Assembly: GCF_023277115.1 (NCBI RefSeq)
Contig: NZ_JALQCS010000001.1
Span: forward strand, 1,978,001 to 2,042,000
Reading direction: 5' to 3'
Length of the DNA: 64,000 bases
Source of the DNA: Acidithiobacillus acidisediminis
Lineage (GTDB): Bacteria > Pseudomonadota > Gammaproteobacteria > Acidithiobacillales > Acidithiobacillaceae
Below, piece by piece: positions 31,404 to 53,278 of this stretch. The first letter of the stretch is position 1. Each line of letters opens with the position of its first letter. Below the pieces are notes generated by a model. That model searched no databases. It was not told the DNA's origin and saw only the letters and a program-made list of their open reading frames with translations. The position numbers and the translations under genes were made by a program.

Positions 31404-32162
31404 TCACGACGATTCGGTTGGCTGGTTTTCGTGACGGTCACGGTGACGGCGTAAAGACTCTCCCTTGAGCTCCAGCCGGTGTGCGCTTTGCAGGAGACGG
31501 TCGAGGACGGCATCGGCGACGGTGGGCTCGCCGAGATATTCGTGCCAGTGGGACACCGGCAGCTGACTGGTGATCAAGGTGGCGCGCTGGCCGACGCGAT
31601 CATCGATGATTTCCAGCAGGTCACGGGCATCCTCTCCACCCATGGGGGCGAGGCCCCAATCGTCGAGCAGTAAGAGGTCGACCTTGGCCAGGGTGTTCAG
31701 ATAGCGGCCGAAGCTCCCGTCACCGTGACGGATACGCAGATCTTCCAGCAGGCGTGGCAAGCGCAGATAGCGCACACTCAAGCCCTGCCGACAGGCTTGA
31801 TGACCGAAGGCACAAGCAAGCCAGGTCTTGCCGGTTCCGGTGGCCCCGGTGAGGAGGAGGTTCTGCCCCTGGCGTATCCAGGTATTCTGGATCAGGGCGG
31901 CGATGCGCGATCGATCCAGTCCCCGAGAACTGCGGTAGTCGATATCCTCGGCGCAGGCATCGTGCTTGAGGTGGGCGAGTTTCAGCAACCGCGTCAGGCG
32001 GCGTTGATCCCGGGCACAGAGTTCGCGGTCGAGGAGCAGGCCGAGGCGCTCTTCGAAGGAGAGCTCCTGGTATTGCGGCAGCCGGGTTTGCTCGTCGAGG
32101 GCATCGGCCATGGCATCGAGGTGTAACTGCCGCAGGGTGTTCAGGGTCGGTGGTAAGAACAT
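31404..32162 (-). CDS. istB: IstB-type helper ATPase of the second IS21-type element
   Basis: This AAA+ ATPase of about 252 residues has Walker A LLTGATGTGKTWLACAFGHQA and Walker B VDLLLLDDWGLAPM, with the IstB pattern ALIQNTWIRQGQN before it. The ATG at 32162 has AGGAG 6 nt upstream; a TTG at 32183 is in frame but overlaps the istA stop. It differs strongly from the IstB of the 11.4 kb element. Confidence 0.92.
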   Translation of the reverse strand: MFLPPTLNTLRQLHLDAMADALDEQTRLPQYQELSFEERLGLLLDRELCARDQRRLTRLLKLAHLKHDACAEDIDYRSSRGLDRSRIAALIQNTWIRQGQNLLLTGATGTGKTWLACAFGHQACRQGLSVRYLRLPRLLEDLRIRHGDGSFGRYLNTLAKVDLLLLDDWGLAPMGGEDARDLLEIIDDRVGQRATLITSQLPVSHWHEYLGEPTVADAVLDRLLQSAHRLELKGESLRRHRDRHENQPTESS

Positions 32163-32179
32163 GAGAAACTCCTGGATAT

Positions 32180-33721
32180 TCAATGGTAGTACTGGGAACC
32201 GCGGAGGTTGTTGTGCGCGGGCAGAGCCGTGCTTTTGGCCGTCGACTCCGGGACGTGATCCATGCCCTTTTGGAGAATCGACCGGACACTGCGGGTGGTC
32301 GGGGCACCAAGGTGCAAGGCCCGACGACAGGCCGCTTCCAGACGGGGCTTGTCATAGCGACGGGCGAGGTGGAGCAAGCCCAAACAGGAGCGATAGCCCT
32401 GCTCGGGGTGCGGCTTACTCTCCAGCTGCCAGCGCACGACGTCGCGGGTTGCCGGGCCAATGGACAGTGCCCAACGCAGCAGACGCCCCGGGCTCCATTC
32501 CCGGTGGCGCTGATGGGCCTTGGGCAGGTGCTCCGTGCAGGTACTGAAGCGGCCCGGCTGCAACCCACGCAGATGACTGGCCACCCGTTGTTGCTGGTGG
32601 AAGATCTCTACCGTTTCGGCACTTATCCGCAGGTCCACCCGTTGCCCGATCAGCCGGTAGGGGACCGAGTAATAGTGCCCCTCGCAAGCGACGTGATAGT
32701 CGATACTGACCTTGGCCGTCTTCCATGTGGCAAAGACATAGGGTTGTACGGGCAAGGGCTGCAGTGCCGGCCGGTCCAGCGCCTCGAAGAGGCTCCTGCG
32801 ACTGCCAGGCAGACGCTTGAAGGGGCGCTGGTTCAGGTCTTCGAGCAGACGATGAATCTCGCGGTTGAGCTCCCGCAGAGAGAAGAACTGGAAGTGCCGC
32901 AGGCGCGCGAGAATCCAACGCTCCACCACTTGCACCCCCACCTCGACCTTGGCCTTGTCTTTGGGCTTGTAGGGCCGAGTGGGGAGCACGACCGAGCCAT
33001 AGTGGGTCGCGAGATCCTGATAGCTGCGGTTGATCTGCGGCTCGTAGCGAGACGCCTTGGTCACGGCCGCCTTGAGGTTGTCGGGGACGAGCAGAACCGG
33101 TGCCCCGCCCAGGTAGTTCAGGGCACGAACGTGGGCGCCCAGGAAGTCCCCCAGGCTCTGGCTCCAGGTCGCCTCGCAGTAGGTATAGCTGGAAGCCCCC
33201 AGCACCGCCACAAAGATCTGTGCCTGCCGGATCTCCCCGGTACTCGGATCGATGACCGGCACGGTAGGGCCAGCATAGTCCACGAAGAGCTTTTCCCCGG
33301 CAACATGGGTCTGGCGCATGCTGAGTTTGAGGCGCCCTCGCCAGCGCCGGTACAGGGTGCAGAACTGCGCGTATTGATACACCCGTTGCCCGGCATGTGC
33401 CCCGACGTATTCCTCCCAGAGCAGCTGCAGGGTCATGCCCTTGCGCCGCAGTTCCGTGTGCATCTGGGCAAAATCCGGCAAGACCTTGCTTGATGCCACT
33501 GCGGGTTTCCGCTCGGGAAAGAGCCGTCCTTCCAGAGCCGCCTCGCCCTGATCCGCAGGCAGCGGCCAGGACACCGCAGCCTGTTCCGCCCGCTGCAGAT
33601 ATTTGCCGACAGCCCCTTTGGAGAGCCCGCAGGCACGGGCAATTTGCCGCTGGCTCAGGCCAGCCGCGTGTAAACGAAGTACCTCCATGATTGCTTTCAT
33701 CGTCATCCTCGGTGTCGGCAT
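32180..33721 (-). CDS. istA: IstA-type transposase of the second IS21-type element
   Basis: This 513-residue transposase has an N-terminal HTH ([24 protein letters not shown]) and a catalytic core with [15 protein letters not shown] (first Asp), [11 protein letters not shown] (second Asp) and [18 protein letters not shown] (Glu). The start at 33721 ([18 protein letters not shown]) has GGAGG 7 nt upstream. It appears intact. Confidence 0.92.
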
Positions 33722-33943
33722 CCTCAACCTCCCGTAAAAAGAGTGCAGGATGCTCGCTAAGCCAATGAATGACCAAAAAGTTCTGAAATCGCCAAGGGAA
33801 AAACACGACACCATTCTGGCATCGTGGGCACCCATTCTGAAAACACCGCAAAACTGCCCACGATCAAAACAGAATCAGTGCCCACGATCGATCAGAATGA
33901 CCGCCCACCATCGTTCAGAATCGCTGCCCACGATGGTCCAGAA

Positions 33944-46599: not shown

Positions 46600-47201
46600 T
46601 TTGGTTCTCCCTGTGATGTTTCATAATTGCGCCCCGACACGCCTCTATCCCGTTGCGCTACCCATGCGCCGCCCAGAATTTCCTTGAGCTTGCTGCACCA
46701 TTCGTCAACGACTGCAGGGCTGGTATCACAGGCTTGTGGTGGAAATGCTTTGGGTAGGTCATGCGCAAAGGTTTTGCCGGATCGAATGGCCCGCAAGACC
46801 TGGTCGTAGTGGTAGGCAAAAAGGGACTGGCTTTTTTCTGCCGAAGTGATGATCAACGCCAATGCCGTCGCCTGGCGTACCGCCTCAATCACGGCTGCAG
46901 GTGTCGCCCGAATTTCCCTGCCATACTGAACGGCGCTGGCGTATGCCATGGCAGCACGATAGGCCATTACCCCCTGAAGTTCCTTGCCATGGTTCGCCAT
47001 CAGGCAAGCATGGCGAAATTCTGGAAGGGATGGCGGCCACGGGTCGCTACGATCGATAGCACACCACCGGAATCCCGCGGCAAGTTGTTCGCCCGTCAGG
47101 TCGGCAAGGGCTGCGGACCAAGACAAGACAGGCTCCAGCCCGTACATGCTGGTCCATTTGTGCCCGTAAATCTCAGTCATGCGAGACCAGATTTGCGCCA
47201 T
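46596..47201 (-). CDS. Phage replication P-like protein (putative helicase loader)
   Basis: About 201 residues from MAQIWSRMTEIYGHKWTSMYG. The pattern IWxRMxEIYGHKW...W..AL..LTGEQLAAGFRWC...WPPSLPEFRHAC is seen in phage and prophage replication proteins placed after O-like initiators and annotated P-like. Such proteins deliver the host helicase to the origin. An in-frame ATG at 47180 overlaps the O-like stop by 8 nt and is an equally good start. A longer frame to 47327 would overlap the initiator gene by 155 bp and is less likely. Confidence 0.65.
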   Translation of the reverse strand: MAQIWSRMTEIYGHKWTSMYGLEPVLSWSAALADLTGEQLAAGFRWCAIDRSDPWPPSLPEFRHACLMANHGKELQGVMAYRAAMAYASAVQYGREIRATPAAVIEAVRQATALALIITSAEKSQSLFAYHYDQVLRAIRSGKTFAHDLPKAFPPQACDTSPAVVDEWCSKLKEILGGAWVAQRDRGVSGRNYETSQGEPK

Positions 47202-48378
47202 GCGCTGCGGATATGTCGATGGTTCTGTCTTCTCTGGTTTGCCGCTCGACCCAGGTATTGCTTGCGTCGCGGACCTGCTCGACAAGCGAGAGCTTAGAAC
47301 GTGGAGAGTTTTGCTGACGGGTTCCATTGGCAGACTCCATGGCGGTTGTCGGTTGCGGAATTGGTAGAAGTTCGTCGGTCCATCGGTCCTGGTTCAGGTA
47401 CGTTGCCGGATTCGGGATGTATCCCCTTTGCCAGGCAGGGTCTCTGCTCAGTCGGTCGCTCAGGTCGTGCAAAATGTCATCGGCTAGAACGTCCAACCTT
47501 TTGGTTTTCCAACGCCTCATGGCTTCTGGCTTGGCCACTTTCTTCGGGTAAGCGTCCCAGAATTCGGCAAAGCGGGATGCATGCTTCCCAGCTTGCGCCA
47601 AAACCCCAGGCGGTGACTGGTCCCCCAGACGAGGTGGATGCCGAGTGTAAGATGGTGGGTCAGACTGTTTCGGAGACGGAGACGGAGACGGAGACGGAGA
47701 CGGAGACGGAGACGGAGACGGAGACGGAGACGGAGACGGAGACGGGGCAGTGCTCAAGTCTGCCGCGAGCACTGCTGAATTGTGCTGGCAGCACTGCTCG
47801 TTTGTGCTGACAGCACTGCTGTGGGCAGAAATGAGCATAACTGATTGTTCTTCCGAGCATTGCTCTTCTATGATTTCCGCACATCTCTTGTCTGCTGATG
47901 GCTCTGCCGATGTTTGCTGCGGCTGCTGCTCGATGTGCTTTTCGGCATTGCCCGTCGAAGGTGTTAGCACCGCTGTTTGATGTCCAGAGCACTGCTGGAT
48001 CATTTGTTCGGCTTTTGCTCGCCCGTATCTTTTTACGAGCGCGGCAAATCGTGCCTGCTGCGATCGATTTTCCGATCCGGCAGCCCATGGGTTGTGGTCC
48101 TGCCAGTCGTGGATGAGGTAATGGCCGGGCTCGATTTCATCCAATAGCCGAAGTTGGATCAGCGCCTCGAAAAAAATCCCAGGATCTAGAGGCCAATCGA
48201 TAGCCAACTCAATGTCGTCAGCATCCATGCCGGCGAGATCGCCATCAGGGCGATTGGCTGCGGCCCAGAGGATCAGCGCGATAAATGACAAGGGACCTTG
48301 CGGACCAAATTTCCGGTTCAGCTTTTTGGATTTTGGGTGTTGCAGAATCCCTGTGTTCAGGCGTGCGTCATTGGACAT
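47173..48378 (-). CDS. Phage replication O-like initiator with a variable Ser-Pro linker
   Basis: This 401-residue protein has an N-terminal winged-helix-like domain (MSNDARLNTGILQHPKSKKLNRKFGPQG...FIALILWAAANRPDGDL) and a C-terminal domain FAEFWDAYPKKVAKPEAMRRWKTKRLD...YIPNPATYLNQDRW, typical of phage replication proteins that bind the origin and the P-like partner. Between them is a Gln/Cys-rich region followed by a (Ser-Pro)n run encoded by a 6-bp tandem repeat (47671-47742), then the C-terminal domain. The gene starts inside the end of a small upstream frame and is followed by the P-like gene. Confidence 0.78.
   Translation of the reverse strand: MSNDARLNTGILQHPKSKKLNRKFGPQGPLSFIALILWAAANRPDGDLAGMDADDIELAIDWPLDPGIFFEALIQLRLLDEIEPGHYLIHDWQDHNPWAAGSENRSQQARFAALVKRYGRAKAEQMIQQCSGHQTAVLTPSTGNAEKHIEQQPQQTSAEPSADKRCAEIIEEQCSEEQSVMLISAHSSAVSTNEQCCQHNSAVLAADLSTAPSPSPSPSPSPSPSPSPSPSPSPSPKQSDPPSYTRHPPRLGDQSPPGVLAQAGKHASRFAEFWDAYPKKVAKPEAMRRWKTKRLDVLADDILHDLSDRLSRDPAWQRGYIPNPATYLNQDRWTDELLPIPQPTTAMESANGTRQQNSPRSKLSLVEQVRDASNTWVERQTREDRTIDISAAHGANLVSHD
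47671..47742 (-). repeat. Hexanucleotide microsatellite, 12 x CGGAGA (Ser-Pro codons)
   Basis: Twelve uninterrupted copies of CGGAGA on the plus strand (TCTCCG on the coding strand) lie inside the O-like initiator gene. Because the unit is six bases, copy-number changes keep the reading frame and only lengthen or shorten the Ser-Pro linker. Confidence 0.95.
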
Positions 48379-48665
48379 GGTTTTTCAGCCTCATCAGCCA
48401 GCAGAATAGGCGCCAGACATGACCGCGCGGCCAAAACACAGTTCGGATGCCCCCGTTTTCTGGCATAGAAGTGGGTCTCATCCGATTCTTCCCCGTGCCA
48501 ACATCCGCACCTGGGCGGCAGACACAAAGTCATCGATCGATACGTGACCATCACGCTTGAGCAATTGGGAACCCCTTCCCGCCTTTCGGTAGTAATCTGT
48601 TGGGCGGCTTCGCGCGAAGCCTGAAGGGCGAGATCCGGGCGGTGGGAAGGTGAGCGATTTTTCAT
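48357..48665 (-). CDS. Small Cys-containing hypothetical protein between CII-like and O-like genes
   Basis: This 102-residue frame (starts MKNRSPSHRPDLALQASREA) begins at an ATG overlapping the CII-like stop (TATGA) with GTGAGG upstream, and it overlaps the O-like start by 22 bp. It contains a cluster LCLPPRCGCWHGEESDETHFYARKR. Gene spacing favours a real gene, but no family was recognised and the overlap with the initiator is unusual. Confidence 0.4.
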   Translation of the reverse strand: MKNRSPSHRPDLALQASREAAQQITTERREGVPNCSSVMVTYRSMTLCLPPRCGCWHGEESDETHFYARKRGHPNCVLAARSCLAPILLADEAEKPCPMTHA

Positions 48666-48973
48666 ACCTCACCCACGGACAGGATTTTGGCCATCTCGTC
48701 GTCGACCAGGACCCGCGACATCCTTTGGCGCAGGAACTGGAGGACTTCAGAACGGATGGTGACTGCATCCTCATCAACAACCTTGAACCCGTTCAGGTAG
48801 ATCAGGGCAAGGGCATCTTTGAGCGCTTCGTTTTTGCTTTGAGAGACCCCTAGAGCTTTCGCTAATGCAAGTTGGCTGCCTGGCTCTTGCATGGACTGCA
48901 AGATGCGCCCATGCGCCTTGCGTGCCATTTCAATCGGGGACCCCGATAGTATGGTCATGGTTTTATCGCGCAT
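48662..48973 (-). CDS. CII-like phage transcription regulator
   Basis: This 103-residue protein (MRDKTMTILSGSPIEMARKAH) has the segment ARKAHGRILQSMQEPGSQLALAKALGVSQS followed by KNEALKDALALIYLNGFKVV, which resembles phage CII-type activators ('RILQ.la..G...lA.alGvseSTVSR.KN..le.fa..La.lGlkvV'). The few residues expected between SQS and KN (the TVSR part of the recognition helix) are missing. It lies directly after the Cro-like gene in the leftward transcript. The ATG at 48973 is chosen, with AGGGGG upstream; 48958 and 48928 are alternatives. Confidence 0.65.
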   Translation of the reverse strand: MRDKTMTILSGSPIEMARKAHGRILQSMQEPGSQLALAKALGVSQSKNEALKDALALIYLNGFKVVDEDAVTIRSEVLQFLRQRMSRVLVDDEMAKILSVGEV

Positions 48974-49014: not shown

Positions 49015-49260
49015 TCACGCGGCCCCTTGGTCTGGATGTTCCTGTTTCTGCTCTGGCGGCCAGATGTCCGGACGCAAGTCCGACCTAGTCACGAGCCCGC
49101 CGGTCGCGGCCTCGATGCGGATGGCACTTAGCACGCTTGGCTGTTTCCTCCCGGTCACCCAACCGCTTACTGCTGGCTGTGTCACTCCGGCAATAAGCGC
49201 TAGGGCTTTCTGGGAGCCTGCGAAAGATAGCGCTCTCGAAATTTGGTCGTGAATGCTCAT
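49015..49260 (-). CDS. Cro/YdaS-like helix-turn-helix regulator
   Basis: This 81-residue protein (MSIHDQISRALSFAGSQKALALIAGVTQPAVSGWVTGRKQPS) has the YdaS/Cro-type HTH in which GSQKALALIAGVTQPAVSGWV forms the DNA-binding helices. It is divergent from the S24 repressor gene and first in the leftward operon, the place of cro in lambdoid phages. The ATG at 49260 lies only about 8 nt past the presumed -10 element, so the transcript would have almost no leader. Confidence 0.85.
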   Translation of the reverse strand: MSIHDQISRALSFAGSQKALALIAGVTQPAVSGWVTGRKQPSVLSAIRIEAATGGLVTRSDLRPDIWPPEQKQEHPDQGAA

Positions 49261-49345
49261 GCGTCAAAAATATAGCTTAGGTTATCGGGCAGATCAATAA
49301 CCTAGGGGTGTTGATATCTTATAACCGGAGTTATACACTGTGCCC
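49261..49345. promoter_or_regulatory. Divergent repressor/Cro control region with palindromic operators
   Basis: Leftward promoter (complement): TTGATC, 17-nt spacer, TATATT (about 49268-49296). Rightward promoter: TTGATA at 49311-49316, 15-nt spacer, TATACA at 49332-49337. Operator-like 14-bp palindromes sit inside both: ATAGCTTAGGTTAT at 49272-49285 and ATAACCGGAGTTAT at 49321-49334 (consensus ATAAC-N4-GTTAT), with a half-site ATAACCTAG at 49297-49305 between them. Both promoters end within about 8 nt of the start codons. Confidence 0.7.
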
Positions 49346-49957
49346 ATGAACTTTTCTGAGCGATTAAAGAAGGCGAGGGAGCATGCGGGGCTGTCGCAGC
49401 GCTCTTTGTCTGAGTCCGTGGGGATGTCGCAACCCGGATACCAGAAGTTAGAAAATGGGGCTTCTGGGTCAAGATTTGCTGCGCAAATTGCGTTCGCCTG
49501 CGGTGTAAGCCCAGAATGGCTGGTGACCGGGAAAGGGGGGATGCTTGACGGGGTTCTGCCTGGCCCAGACATTAGAGCTTGGTATCCAATTCTCGGTTCG
49601 GTGCCTTGCGGGGCGCCGGATCAGATTATAGAACGGGCACGGCAGGACCCTGCTGTTCAATGGGCTCCAAGTCCAAAGATGGTTTCATGCTTGGCGTTCT
49701 ATCTTCGCGTTTCTGGTAACAGCATGTCTCCAACCCTTAGCGAGGGCGATATCGTCTTGATAGATCCTGAAGCGCAGCCTAGGCATAGAGATATTGTCGT
49801 GGTTCGGAATGGTGACAATGAGGCGACCATGAAGCGATTGCTTCAAGATGGCGATGAATGGTTGCTGGTTCCAGATAATCCGCAATTCCCAACCAAAGCG
49901 TTGGGGGCGTGCGAAATTGTTGGTGTTGCAGTGCATTCATATCGGGACTTGCGATGA
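49340..49957 (+). CDS. CI/LexA-like S24 repressor of the phage-like element
   Basis: This 205-residue repressor has an N-terminal XRE HTH (FSERLKKAREHAGLSQRSLSESVGMSQPGYQKLENG) and a C-terminal S24 peptidase domain with catalytic Ser (VSGNSMSPTL, S128) and Lys (EATMKRLL, K165). The likely autocleavage bond is Cys90-Gly91 (GSVPCGAP), where family members have Ala-Gly or Cys-Gly. It should repress the replication operon until DNA damage triggers self-cleavage. GTG at 49340 has GGAG 9 nt upstream; ATG at 49346 would make a nearly leaderless transcript from the promoter at 49311-49337. Confidence 0.92.
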   Translation: MPMNFSERLKKAREHAGLSQRSLSESVGMSQPGYQKLENGASGSRFAAQIAFACGVSPEWLVTGKGGMLDGVLPGPDIRAWYPILGSVPCGAPDQIIERARQDPAVQWAPSPKMVSCLAFYLRVSGNSMSPTLSEGDIVLIDPEAQPRHRDIVVVRNGDNEATMKRLLQDGDEWLLVPDNPQFPTKALGACEIVGVAVHSYRDLR

Positions 49958-49998
49958 CTATGGCGGTTCATAAGTCCCATGCCTGAAAACTTGGGATG

Positions 49999-50026
49999 TT
50001 GACTAAACGATAACTAAAGTTATACT
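49999..50026 (+). promoter_or_regulatory. Repressor-controlled promoter of the rightward small-gene operon
   Basis: TTGACT at 49999-50004, 16-nt spacer, TATACT at 50021-50026. The 14-bp palindrome ATAACTAAAGTTAT (50010-50023) covers the spacer and the -10, and has the same ATAAC-N4-GTTAT form as the operators at 49272 and 49321. The S24 repressor therefore probably also shuts this promoter. Confidence 0.75.
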
Positions 50027-50057: not shown

Positions 50058-50273
50058 ATGAACAACCCGCAGACAACATTCAACTCACTAATCCGAGTGA
50101 TGGGTTCCCCTCTTGCCCCTCGGGAGATTCTTGACCGGACATCGCCTATCCGTGTGGCAGTTCACTACCACGATGGCGCCACCCTGACTTTTCTCTTTGA
50201 TCGGGATACCCTCGTCACGAACCTGAACGGCATGATCAGCCGCGCTGGATGGGTGCGGAAGGTGGTGTTGTGA
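50058..50273 (+). CDS. Small hypothetical protein under repressor control
   Basis: This 71-residue protein (MNNPQTTFNSLIRVMGSPLA...VAVHYHDGATLTFLFDRDTLVTNLNG) has alternating strand-like segments. The start at 50058 has GGAG 6 nt upstream; an in-frame ATG at 50046 adds four residues. Its stop overlaps the next gene (TGATG). No family was recognised; it is the first gene after the operator-bearing promoter. Confidence 0.6.
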   Translation: MNNPQTTFNSLIRVMGSPLAPREILDRTSPIRVAVHYHDGATLTFLFDRDTLVTNLNGMISRAGWVRKVVL

Positions 50274-50535: not shown

Positions 50536-50723
50536 ATGGATAGCTTGATTCGAGAAGAAGGGCTGTTGGAGTGGTTGGGATACTCTAGGCGATCCGATGC
50601 CATGAAGTGGTTGGATGAGCATGGTGTACCCTACTGGTATGGGCGGGGAGGGCGGATCTGCACTACGCAAGCCGCCATCGATACGGTCATGACGGCTATT
50701 GCTACGCACGAGGCCAAGTCCAG
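50536..50723 (+). pseudogene. DUF4224-like protein cut by IS21 copy 2
   Basis: ATG at 50536 opens MDSLIREEGLLEWLGYSRRS and continues WLDEHGVPYWYGRGGRICTTQAAIDTVM, the pattern of DUF4224 proteins (a small domain usually found just upstream of a tyrosine integrase). After ~62 residues the frame enters the IS21 right end at 50724. The integrase expected downstream is not present in the window. Confidence 0.65.
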
Positions 50724-50776
50724 TGTCAATCAGCGTCGAAATTTGAACAGGTGTCAGCGTCCAATTTTGAACAGTT

Positions 50777-51508
50777 TCAGAGGGGGAGAGAGCGGCGCTG
50801 TTTGTAGCGGTAGGAGTCGTTCCCTGTCTCGATGATGTCGCAGTGGTGGGTGAGGCGATCGAGCATGGCGGTGGTCATCTTGGCGTCGCCGAAGACCTGG
50901 ACCCATTCCCCGAAGGAGAGGTTCGTGGTGACGATCAGCGCGGTGTGCTCGTAGAGCTTGCTGATCAGGTGAAAGAGCAAGGCGCCACCGGACTCGGAGA
51001 AGGGTAAGTAGCCCAGCTCATCGAGGACGACGAGGTTCATGTTCAGCAGGGTTTTGACCAGGCGGCCACTCTGGCCACGGGTCTTTTCCTGCTCCAATTG
51101 ATTGACCAGATCGACGACGTTGAACCAGCGCACACGATGGCCCTGGTAGATGGCAGCGTGTCCGAGAGCCAGTGCGAGATGGGTTTTCCCGGTCCCAGTA
51201 CCACCGACGAAGATGATGTTGTGGGCGGCGCCCAGATTGTGGCCCTCGGCAAGTCGTTGTAGCGCCTTCTGGTCCACGGGACTCTCGGTAAAGTCGAAGT
51301 CTTCCAGGCCGCGCTGGGCGGGGAAACGTGCGGTACGCATCTGGTAGAGGAGGCTACGATTGCTGCGTTCCTGGCTTTCCGCGGCGAGGAGTTGCCCCAA
51401 CCACGTCTCGGGATCCTGAGGTAGGCGCTGGTCCATCCAATCCTCCACCGCCAGGGCCATGCCATAGAGATGCAGAGCACGCAGGGATTGCAGCAGCTCA
51501 GTGGACAT
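50777..51508 (-). CDS. istB: IS21-family helper ATPase IstB (copy 2)
   Basis: Encodes the same protein as the gene at 12974-13705, with Walker [10 protein letters not shown] and Walker [12 protein letters not shown]. It overlaps the 3' end of the copy 2 istA. Confidence 0.93.
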
Positions 51509-53003
51509 AGGCATTCCCCCGCAGCAAGTCGTAGCGGGCACAGTCCGCACGGGGCTCATCCTGCAAACGCAGAGCCTCCGGCGTACACACCGGGGCCGGG
51601 GGCAGCGGATTCGCCAAACGATGCATAAGGTTCAGTACCACCGCGGCATTCACGGCACCCTGCTCCAGGGCCATGGCGCAGGCGGTTTCCAGATTGTCGA
51701 TGCCGTATTCCCGTGCCATCAGGAGTACGGTGACGAACTCCCGATCCCCCAAGGGCTTGCTTTGCAGCCGTTGACGCACTGAGGTGATGGCGCGAGGCAG
51801 CTCCTGGAAGGGGCGCCCGTTGCGCAGGGCACCGGGCTTGCGCTCCAGGACATCCAGGTAGTGGATGACATCCGTGAAGACCTGGCCGCGCCCCATATGC
51901 CGCCGATGGCTGGCCACCGCCTGGCCTTCGTGCAGGACCAGGATACGGTCCACATAGCGGCGTACCTGCAGGTACTGGCCCGCGTATTGGGCCGGCACGC
52001 TGTACTGGTTCCGATCCACCGTCACCAGGCAGGTCTTGGACACCCGCGCCCGCACCTCGACGTATCCATCGAAGGTTGCCCGAAAGGCGCGCAGGGAGGA
52101 CTGCTCCTCCTGGAAGACTTCCCAGATGCTGCGGTCCTTCTGCTCGGGGTGAGCCTCGCTCTGCGCGCGTTCCACGCACTGTTGCCAGAGCCAGGCATTG
52201 AGCTGGTCGATGTCATCGAAGCGCGGCGTGGGGGTGAAGAACCACTTGCGCAGCGTATCCACCTGGTTCTCGACCTGCCCCTTCTCCCAGCCGGCCGCCA
52301 CCGTGCAGGCGGTGGGGTCGATGAGATAGTGGTTCATCATCGCCAGGAACCGGGGATTGAACTCCCGATCTTGTCCCTCAACGAGCTTGCGGTAGACCAT
52401 GTCGACAATGGTCTTGGGGTTGTCGTAAATCCCCCGCTCGGGCACCCCGCCAAAGGCGGCAAAGGCCTCCTGGTGGGCGGCAAAGACCATTTCCTGGGTC
52501 TCCCTGGGATAGGCCCGAACGAAAGACATCCGGCTATGGGTGAGCCGAAATTGCGCCACCTTCACGGTGTGCGTCACGCCGCCCAAAACGACCGTCTCGG
52601 TGCTCCAGTCGAACTGATAGGCCTCGCCAGGGCGAAAGACTAGAGGGATATAGGCCTTCTGCACGCCCGGATGCTCAACGACCTTCCAGTGCTTCACCCA
52701 GCGCTGGACGCTATCGTAGGCCCCGGTATAGCCCTCCTTGCGCAGATCCTCAAAGAGTCGGCGCGCCGTCCGACGCTGCTTGCGGGGCAGATGCGATTCG
52801 GTCTCCACCCACTTCTGCAGAATGGCCTCATGAGGCCCGAGTTGGGGCTTCGCCGAGGACCGGCGGGTGTACTTGGGGACATCTCCATCGTGGTGCAGGT
52901 ACTTGTAGACCGTGTTCCGCGACAAGCGAAACTGCCGGGCTATCTCGCTGATGGACTTCTTCTTAACGTGGTACAGCAGGCGAATCTTGGCAATCGTTTC
53001 CAT
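51498..53003 (-). CDS. istA: IS21-family transposase IstA (copy 2)
   Basis: Encodes the same protein as the gene at 11479-12984, with [23 protein letters not shown] and the D-D-E core. Identity of the two proteins over their full length points to a recent duplication or ongoing gene conversion. Confidence 0.93.
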
Positions 53004-53278
53004 GCAAAGCACTCCAGGTACCTCCCGGGCCAAATCCCGAGAGGGTAGCAGGTGTTCAGTTTTCGACGCTGATTCCTACCTGCACCTGTTCACTTTTGCA
53101 CGCTGATTAACATCCCCCCAAATCCCGACTTGTGAAAGGGCCAAAAATCGCCCATTCTTGACTCCGTTCGAGAGCCCATTTCTGGCCATTTGAAGTGGCG
53201 CCATTAGGCCGACCCTGGTTGGCGCCATTAGGGTGGCCAATGACAGAGCTCGACGTCGGGTATCAGCAGGGGTGTACC

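Follow-up and report, generated by a model that had tools for sequence, protein, structure and literature searches.

The window analysed here (64,000 nt of a 2.8 Mb host genome) very probably carries, in a prophage remnant, a lysis-lysogeny switch of the lambda type, in which the messages of the repressor (cI) and of its divergent partner (cro) would be leaderless or nearly so and that of the left arm (PL) would carry a leader. It presents a cI-type repressor gene divergent from cro, with a CII-like gene and replication genes behind cro, as in lambda-type immunity regions. A phage-type switch in which one repressor governs two arms of the element had already been proposed in the initial annotation, and this reading is favoured by the comparison with five related loci, which keep both the operators and their spacing. 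We therefore regard the window as a compact but otherwise ordinary lambda-type switch of an acidophile, with a probably leaderless divergent regulator pair. A prophage switch of Acidithiobacillus is not described in the titles and abstracts among the literature matches listed.

The features of the switch are collected in Table 1; the gene identities, as well as the operators, spacing and promoter positions discussed below, come from the sequence and its conservation. On the minus strand, reading from 49260, cro is followed by the CII-like gene, the gene for replication initiation and one matching P-like helicase loaders. The best solved chain for the Cro profile is 3bd1, named 'Cro protein' (1e-12), and the CII assignment stems from one PHROG match, the gene having no match in Pfam. 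Within the replication gene, a run of GGAGAC hexamers (about 47674-47746) codes for a Ser-Pro repeat. PF15943, the family matched by the cro product, is named a toxin, a function that we set aside because both the position of the gene and the accessible part of a study on a related immunity region (PMC8630535) argue for a Cro analogue.

On the plus strand, from 49346, the repressor gene is followed by two small genes, for which no family match was obtained, and then by the excisionase-like gene. The repressor, whose best solved relative by sequence is the lambda repressor (3bdn, 2.3e-18), has an S24 domain, and its residues G89, S126 and K163 are invariant across the six repressors of the window and its relatives; these are the putative cleavage-site and catalytic residues (Ala/Cys-Gly site, Ser and Lys). 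For the product of the first PL gene no Pfam or PHROG match was obtained at E 0.01; GGAG lies 6 nt ahead of its ATG at 50058, and its C-terminus VRKVVL recurs in the first ORF behind OL in the related locus L006 and in locus L029. At its 3' end the excisionase-like gene continues into an IS21 element (IstB at 50777-51559). Transposase genes flank the element (40.3-42.3 kb and 50.8-55.4 kb) and no virion protein was found among the 22 proteins of the window scanned against protein families (part of the window's ORFs), so that it is probably an early-region prophage remnant between insertion sequences. Two IS21-type IstB/IstA pairs occur in the window, at 31404-33835 and 50777-53033, the latter cutting the end of the excisionase-like gene.

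Table 1. Genes, predicted operators and predicted promoters of the switch, with positions in the window.
Feature	Position	Strand	Remarks
Replication initiation gene	47173..48378	-	position of lambda O; phrog_9474 3.8e-35
CII-like gene	48662..48958	-	downstream of cro; phrog_725 'CII-like regulator' 3e-7
cro gene, YdaS/Cro type	49018..49260	-	81 aa; ATG at 49260; PF15943 4.6e-16, phrog_35 2e-21
PR, TTGATC-N17-TATATT	49269..49297	-	-10 ends 8 nt ahead of cro ATG 49260
OR1, predicted operator	49272..49285		ATAGCTTAGGTTAT; 1 mismatch; overlaps PR -10
OR2, predicted operator	49297..49310		ATAACCTAGGGGTG; one perfect half-site, 4 mismatches
PRM, TTGATA-N17-TACACT	49311..49339	+	-10 ends 6 nt ahead of repressor ATG 49346
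OR3, predicted operator	49321..49334		ATAACCGGAGTTAT; exact
cI-type repressor gene	49346..49957	+	203 aa; HTH + peptidase S24; PF00717 2.2e-24, phrog_4 3.3e-46
OL2, predicted operator	49986..49999		AAAACTTGGGATGT; degenerate, 3 mismatches; 24 bp from OL1
PL, TTGACT-N16-TATACT	49999..50026	+	predicted to drive left-arm genes
OL1, predicted operator	50010..50023		ATAACTAAAGTTAT; exact; overlaps PL -10
First PL gene, small protein	50058..50273	+	ATG 50046 or 50058
Excisionase-like gene (DUF4224)	50536..50835	+	PF13986 3.1e-5, phrog_1266 'excisionase' 5.6e-7

The initial annotation had placed one and the same palindrome at 49272, 49321 and 50010. All three sites were recovered; ATAAC-N4-GTTAT is exact at 49321 and 50010, its only two matches in the 64 kb (mean of 0.00 in 100 shuffles), while the site at 49272 (ATAGCTTAGGTTAT) deviates in one position and joins them when one mismatch is allowed (shuffle mean 0.46). 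Two degenerate partners, at 49297 and 49986, had been missed, and the sites of the window probably number five, not three. OR2 at 49297 lies 25 and 24 bp from the neighbouring sites, completing three regularly spaced operators, and its centre falls at -42.5 from the repressor ATG; the site at 49986 forms with that at 50010 a second cluster, accompanied by a promoter, behind cI. The layout is that of lambda: OR1-OR2-OR3 separate cro from cI, and OL1-OL2 follow cI ahead of the excisionase arm. Sites with up to three mismatches occur at 0.6% and with up to four at 1.7% of local positions; OL2 and OR2 of the window are thus weak when taken alone and rest on the relatives.

Among 14 family loci scanned, the operator set was found in five (L006, L029, L030, L032 and L034) and was absent from nine (L031, L033 and L035-L041), one of which, L038, has a one-mismatch and a two-mismatch site 48 bp apart. 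L006 belongs to the same genome as the window, and L029 and L030 to a genus-mate, Acidithiobacillus sp. YTS05 (NZ_CP094359). In all six loci (the window and the five relatives) the OR spacing is 23-25 bp and the cI-cro gap 83-85 bp, and the centre of OR2 is found at -42.5 (two loci) or -43.5 (four loci) from the cI ATG. At the OR2 position all five relatives have a site with a perfect half, and their OL comprises two sites 24 bp apart, with a one-mismatch site in each. That palindromes should have come to lie near three promoters by chance is extremely improbable: three sites were reached in 1 of the 100 window shuffles at the one-mismatch level, but an exact site in none of them, and the recurrence of the same sites and spacing in five related loci led us to rule this explanation out. 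In L029 an OL operator (2166-2179) and the repressor stop codon overlap. The genome of the window also has a third cI/cro pair (L037, G000:C1:2065700-2070700), which is without the window's operator and therefore probably represents another immunity type.

As had been proposed, each of the three better palindromes lies in a sigma-70-type promoter: between 48900 and 50600 only three such promoters were detected (shuffles: mean 1.2, sd 1.0), each overlapped by an operator at its -10, and the -10s end within about 8 nt of the start codons of both regulators (Table 1). PR is the top-scoring promoter in 6/6 loci; the distance from its end to the cro ATG is 8 nt in the window and 6 nt in the five relatives, and all six have a good -35, spaced by 16-17 bp. 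The best PRM call is located 6-9 nt ahead of the cI ATG in five of the six loci, a 7-nt option ranking second in L034; it scores 10.5 in the window versus 5.0-6.7 in the relatives, whose PRM start is therefore uncertain. Ahead of cro no SD word of the strict list was found in any of the six loci, and ahead of the cI ATG an SD-like word is present in one by the strict list (L032) and in three by a looser one (L029, L032, L034). Across 29 family genomes, ATAACYNNRGTTAT-N6-12-ATG gave eight matches versus two for the reversed control, and by position all eight are cI or cro starts of the six loci. As transcription starts about 7 nt after the -10, the cI and cro messages would begin at or beside the AUG, and judged by promoter position and SD words both are probably leaderless or nearly so. 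A PL-like promoter is likewise present in 6/6 loci; because 17-49 nt separate its -10 from the candidate starts (19 or 31 nt for the two candidate ATGs of the window), the left-arm message is predicted not to be leaderless and to have an ordinary leader.

The same switch might instead work with leaders, from promoters elsewhere (for example a CII-dependent PRE, with translation from GTG 49340), the close -10s arising incidentally where operators ending in GTTAT lie near start codons. We consider this quite unlikely. The operator half GTTAT does by itself yield TAT-like -10s, and GGAG is found 9 nt ahead of the in-frame GTG 49340 of the repressor, which would suit a leadered message; this GTG is a possible second repressor start on a longer transcript. 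There is also, at 48918 and on the strand reading toward the repressor, a 7/8 match to the CII box, whose consensus is TTGC-N6-TTGC, a match that is not rare in 400 bp. Against leaders stand, however, the good -35 of PR in all six loci together with the lack of an SD word before cro, and the split of cro starts in the survey described below into short-gap and long-gap groups that differ in their SD words. Moreover, of the 64 window ORFs of at least 150 aa three have a promoter gap of 5-9 nt and only one combines such a gap with a promoter score of at least 10, score and gap being those of the repressor.

In the lambda-type switch that we favour, PRM would supply the S24-type repressor, which would occupy OR1/OR2 and OL1/OL2 and shut both PR (cro, the CII-like gene and the replication genes) and PL (the excisionase arm). 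From OR2, with its centre 42.5 bp upstream of the repressor's own start, it could also activate PRM. Lambda CI activates PRM from OR2 at about the position seen here (-42.5/-43.5), and the centre at -42.5 would fit a window repressor that occupies OR as well as OL and, from OR2, activates PRM. The YdaS-type Cro would in turn shut PRM, and DNA damage would lead to RecA-assisted self-cleavage of the repressor; since the element is an apparent remnant, such damage may not yield phage. Transcripts from PRM and PR would start at or within a few nt of the AUG, and the PL message would have a normal leader. Binding, activation, cleavage and transcript starts are the inferred parts of this scheme.

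The genome of the window contains a second element (L006, 601-603 kb) with the same operator consensus and half-site preferences. ATARC-N4-GTTAT occurs at eight distinct places in this genome, five of them in the window switch or the second element; ATARC-YNNR-GTTAT fits these five and not the remaining three, and this Y/R rule for the operator centre is a tendency, broken by a few sites of relatives. The two repressors are 41% identical overall and agree at 42 of 65 HTH positions, GMSQPG(Y/I)QKLE in the HTH part being nearly the same in both, and cross-binding between the repressors and operators of the two elements is likely on these similarities. YTS05 also holds both kinds of element, and the second element is 96% identical to its YTS05 counterpart over 19.5 kb. 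It carries an anti-restriction protein, with restriction/methylase-like genes nearby, and no virion families were found among the 13 of its proteins scanned (part of its ORFs). Beside it, a stretch with ResIII helicase-like, DNA methylase and AAA/PHP-like genes (L168, 9353-17073) is possibly a defence island.

The shared operator code raises a further alternative, somewhat unlikely in our view, namely that the switch is defunct and that the operators of the remnant matter only through silencing by the L006 repressor. The operator consensus and HTH residues common to the two elements would be in line with this, as would the transposase genes on both sides and the lack of virion proteins among the 22 scanned. 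Against long neglect speaks, however, that the repressor and cro frames are intact, as are the three promoters and the three good operators.

Among known systems, phage lambda resembles the window in its three OR sites, its OL behind cI and its related repressor (3bdn, as above), and differs in operator sequence. Its cro has a leader and its OL has three sites. The cI message of lambda is leaderless (PMC4488713, PMC8630535). Closer in operator sequence is Escherichia phage HK639 (NC_016158), which has ATAAC-N4-GTTAT operators (ATAACCCAAGTTAT, ATAACCTTTGTTAT and ATAACCTCGGTTAT) between cro and cI, spaced by 25 and 24 bp as in the window, and one further operator at the annotated pL; the repressor-cro-CII order and the distance of 11 nt from OR3 to the cI ATG are also shared. 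Unlike in the window, the cI-cro gap of HK639 is 110 bp, so that its cro would have a leader, and three genes plus one opposite gene lie between cI and pL. The putative pR of the HK639 record ends 16 nt before cro, which is 17 bp nearer than the promoter given by our rule in a locus of the same kind (L194, 33 nt).

In the immB region of the Yersinia telomere phage PY54, cI and cro are each transcribed as one leaderless mRNA from the AUG, as mapped by 5'-RACE according to the available part of the report (PMC4488713), and the same is predicted for the window. PY54 differs in that its Cro binds a single operator and in a stronger cI promoter at the 5' end of cro (PMC4488713). The initial annotation had stressed leaderlessness in both directions; the short -10-to-ATG distances kept in the five relatives support this prediction, but given the RACE data of PY54 it is not new. 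Besides PY54, no mapped double-leaderless switch was found among the literature matches listed, in which subscription journals are thinly covered. In the CP-933P immunity region of E. coli O157:H7 (PaaR2/YdaS/YdaT), YdaS is the Cro analogue, corresponding to the YdaS type of the window cro, the repressor mRNA is leaderless and the PL region has operators; unlike in the window, the repressor lacks a peptidase motif and the operon includes a toxin-antitoxin pair (PMC8630535). A leaderless ydaS is not stated in the accessible part of that report.

We also surveyed repressors with divergent neighbours in genome and viral contigs, where 261 repressor ORFs gave 188 pairs (a divergent neighbour of 50-160 aa, starting with ATG and 40-200 nt away). 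Dereplication at 80% reduced these to 76; it merges copies, and of the six group members four are left (window, L029, L030, L032). Partners were picked for their position and length irrespective of family, and some are therefore wrong; the pairs are interrelated, and the counts below do not represent independent events. The two -10s are 68-72 bp apart in 36/76 pairs (mean 4.8 and maximum 13 in 5000 runs with gaps shuffled among pairs); the other 40 do not show this core, and wrong partners, starts or promoters are possible there. The 36 comprise 10 with short gaps on both sides, 14 with a short gap on the cI side only (the lambda type), nine with neither and three unclear cases; doubtful among the 10 is L046, double-leaderless with the ATG start for which it was counted and leadered with a GTG start. 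SD-like words precede cro at 0/11 short-gap versus 13/24 long-gap starts, and cI at 5/25 versus 5/9, and the long cro gaps are mostly 28-34 nt (19/24). In a separate survey limited to Cro-family partners (n=31 pairs), the cI gap was 6-9 nt in 20 and the cro gap 6-8 nt in 10. The combination of leaderless cI and leaderless cro, mapped only in PY54 among the literature matches listed, is thus suggested to recur (10/36 well-aligned pairs).

It is possible, and we put it forward tentatively, that many such switches share an operator-promoter core of fixed size, with about 70 bp separating the -10s, and that either side may or may not gain a leader (mostly about 18-28 nt) independently of the other, so that evolution could set none, one or both regulators leaderless. 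The window would then fall into the leaderless class, with the whole decision in one translation mode, and co-resident elements, as in this genome and in YTS05, would share an operator code and cross-regulate. If transcripts confirm that leaderless cI and leaderless cro recur together, the lysis-lysogeny decision would have in leader length a setting that can be separated and tested.

Many viral contigs near HK639 and others, including L105, L106, L111, L173 and L195, contain two exact ATAACYNNRGTTAT sites 47-49 bp apart. Exact matches are present in 83 of 329 loci, many of these being copies of one locus, and two exact sites 46-50 bp apart are found in 10 of the 76 dereplicated pairs.
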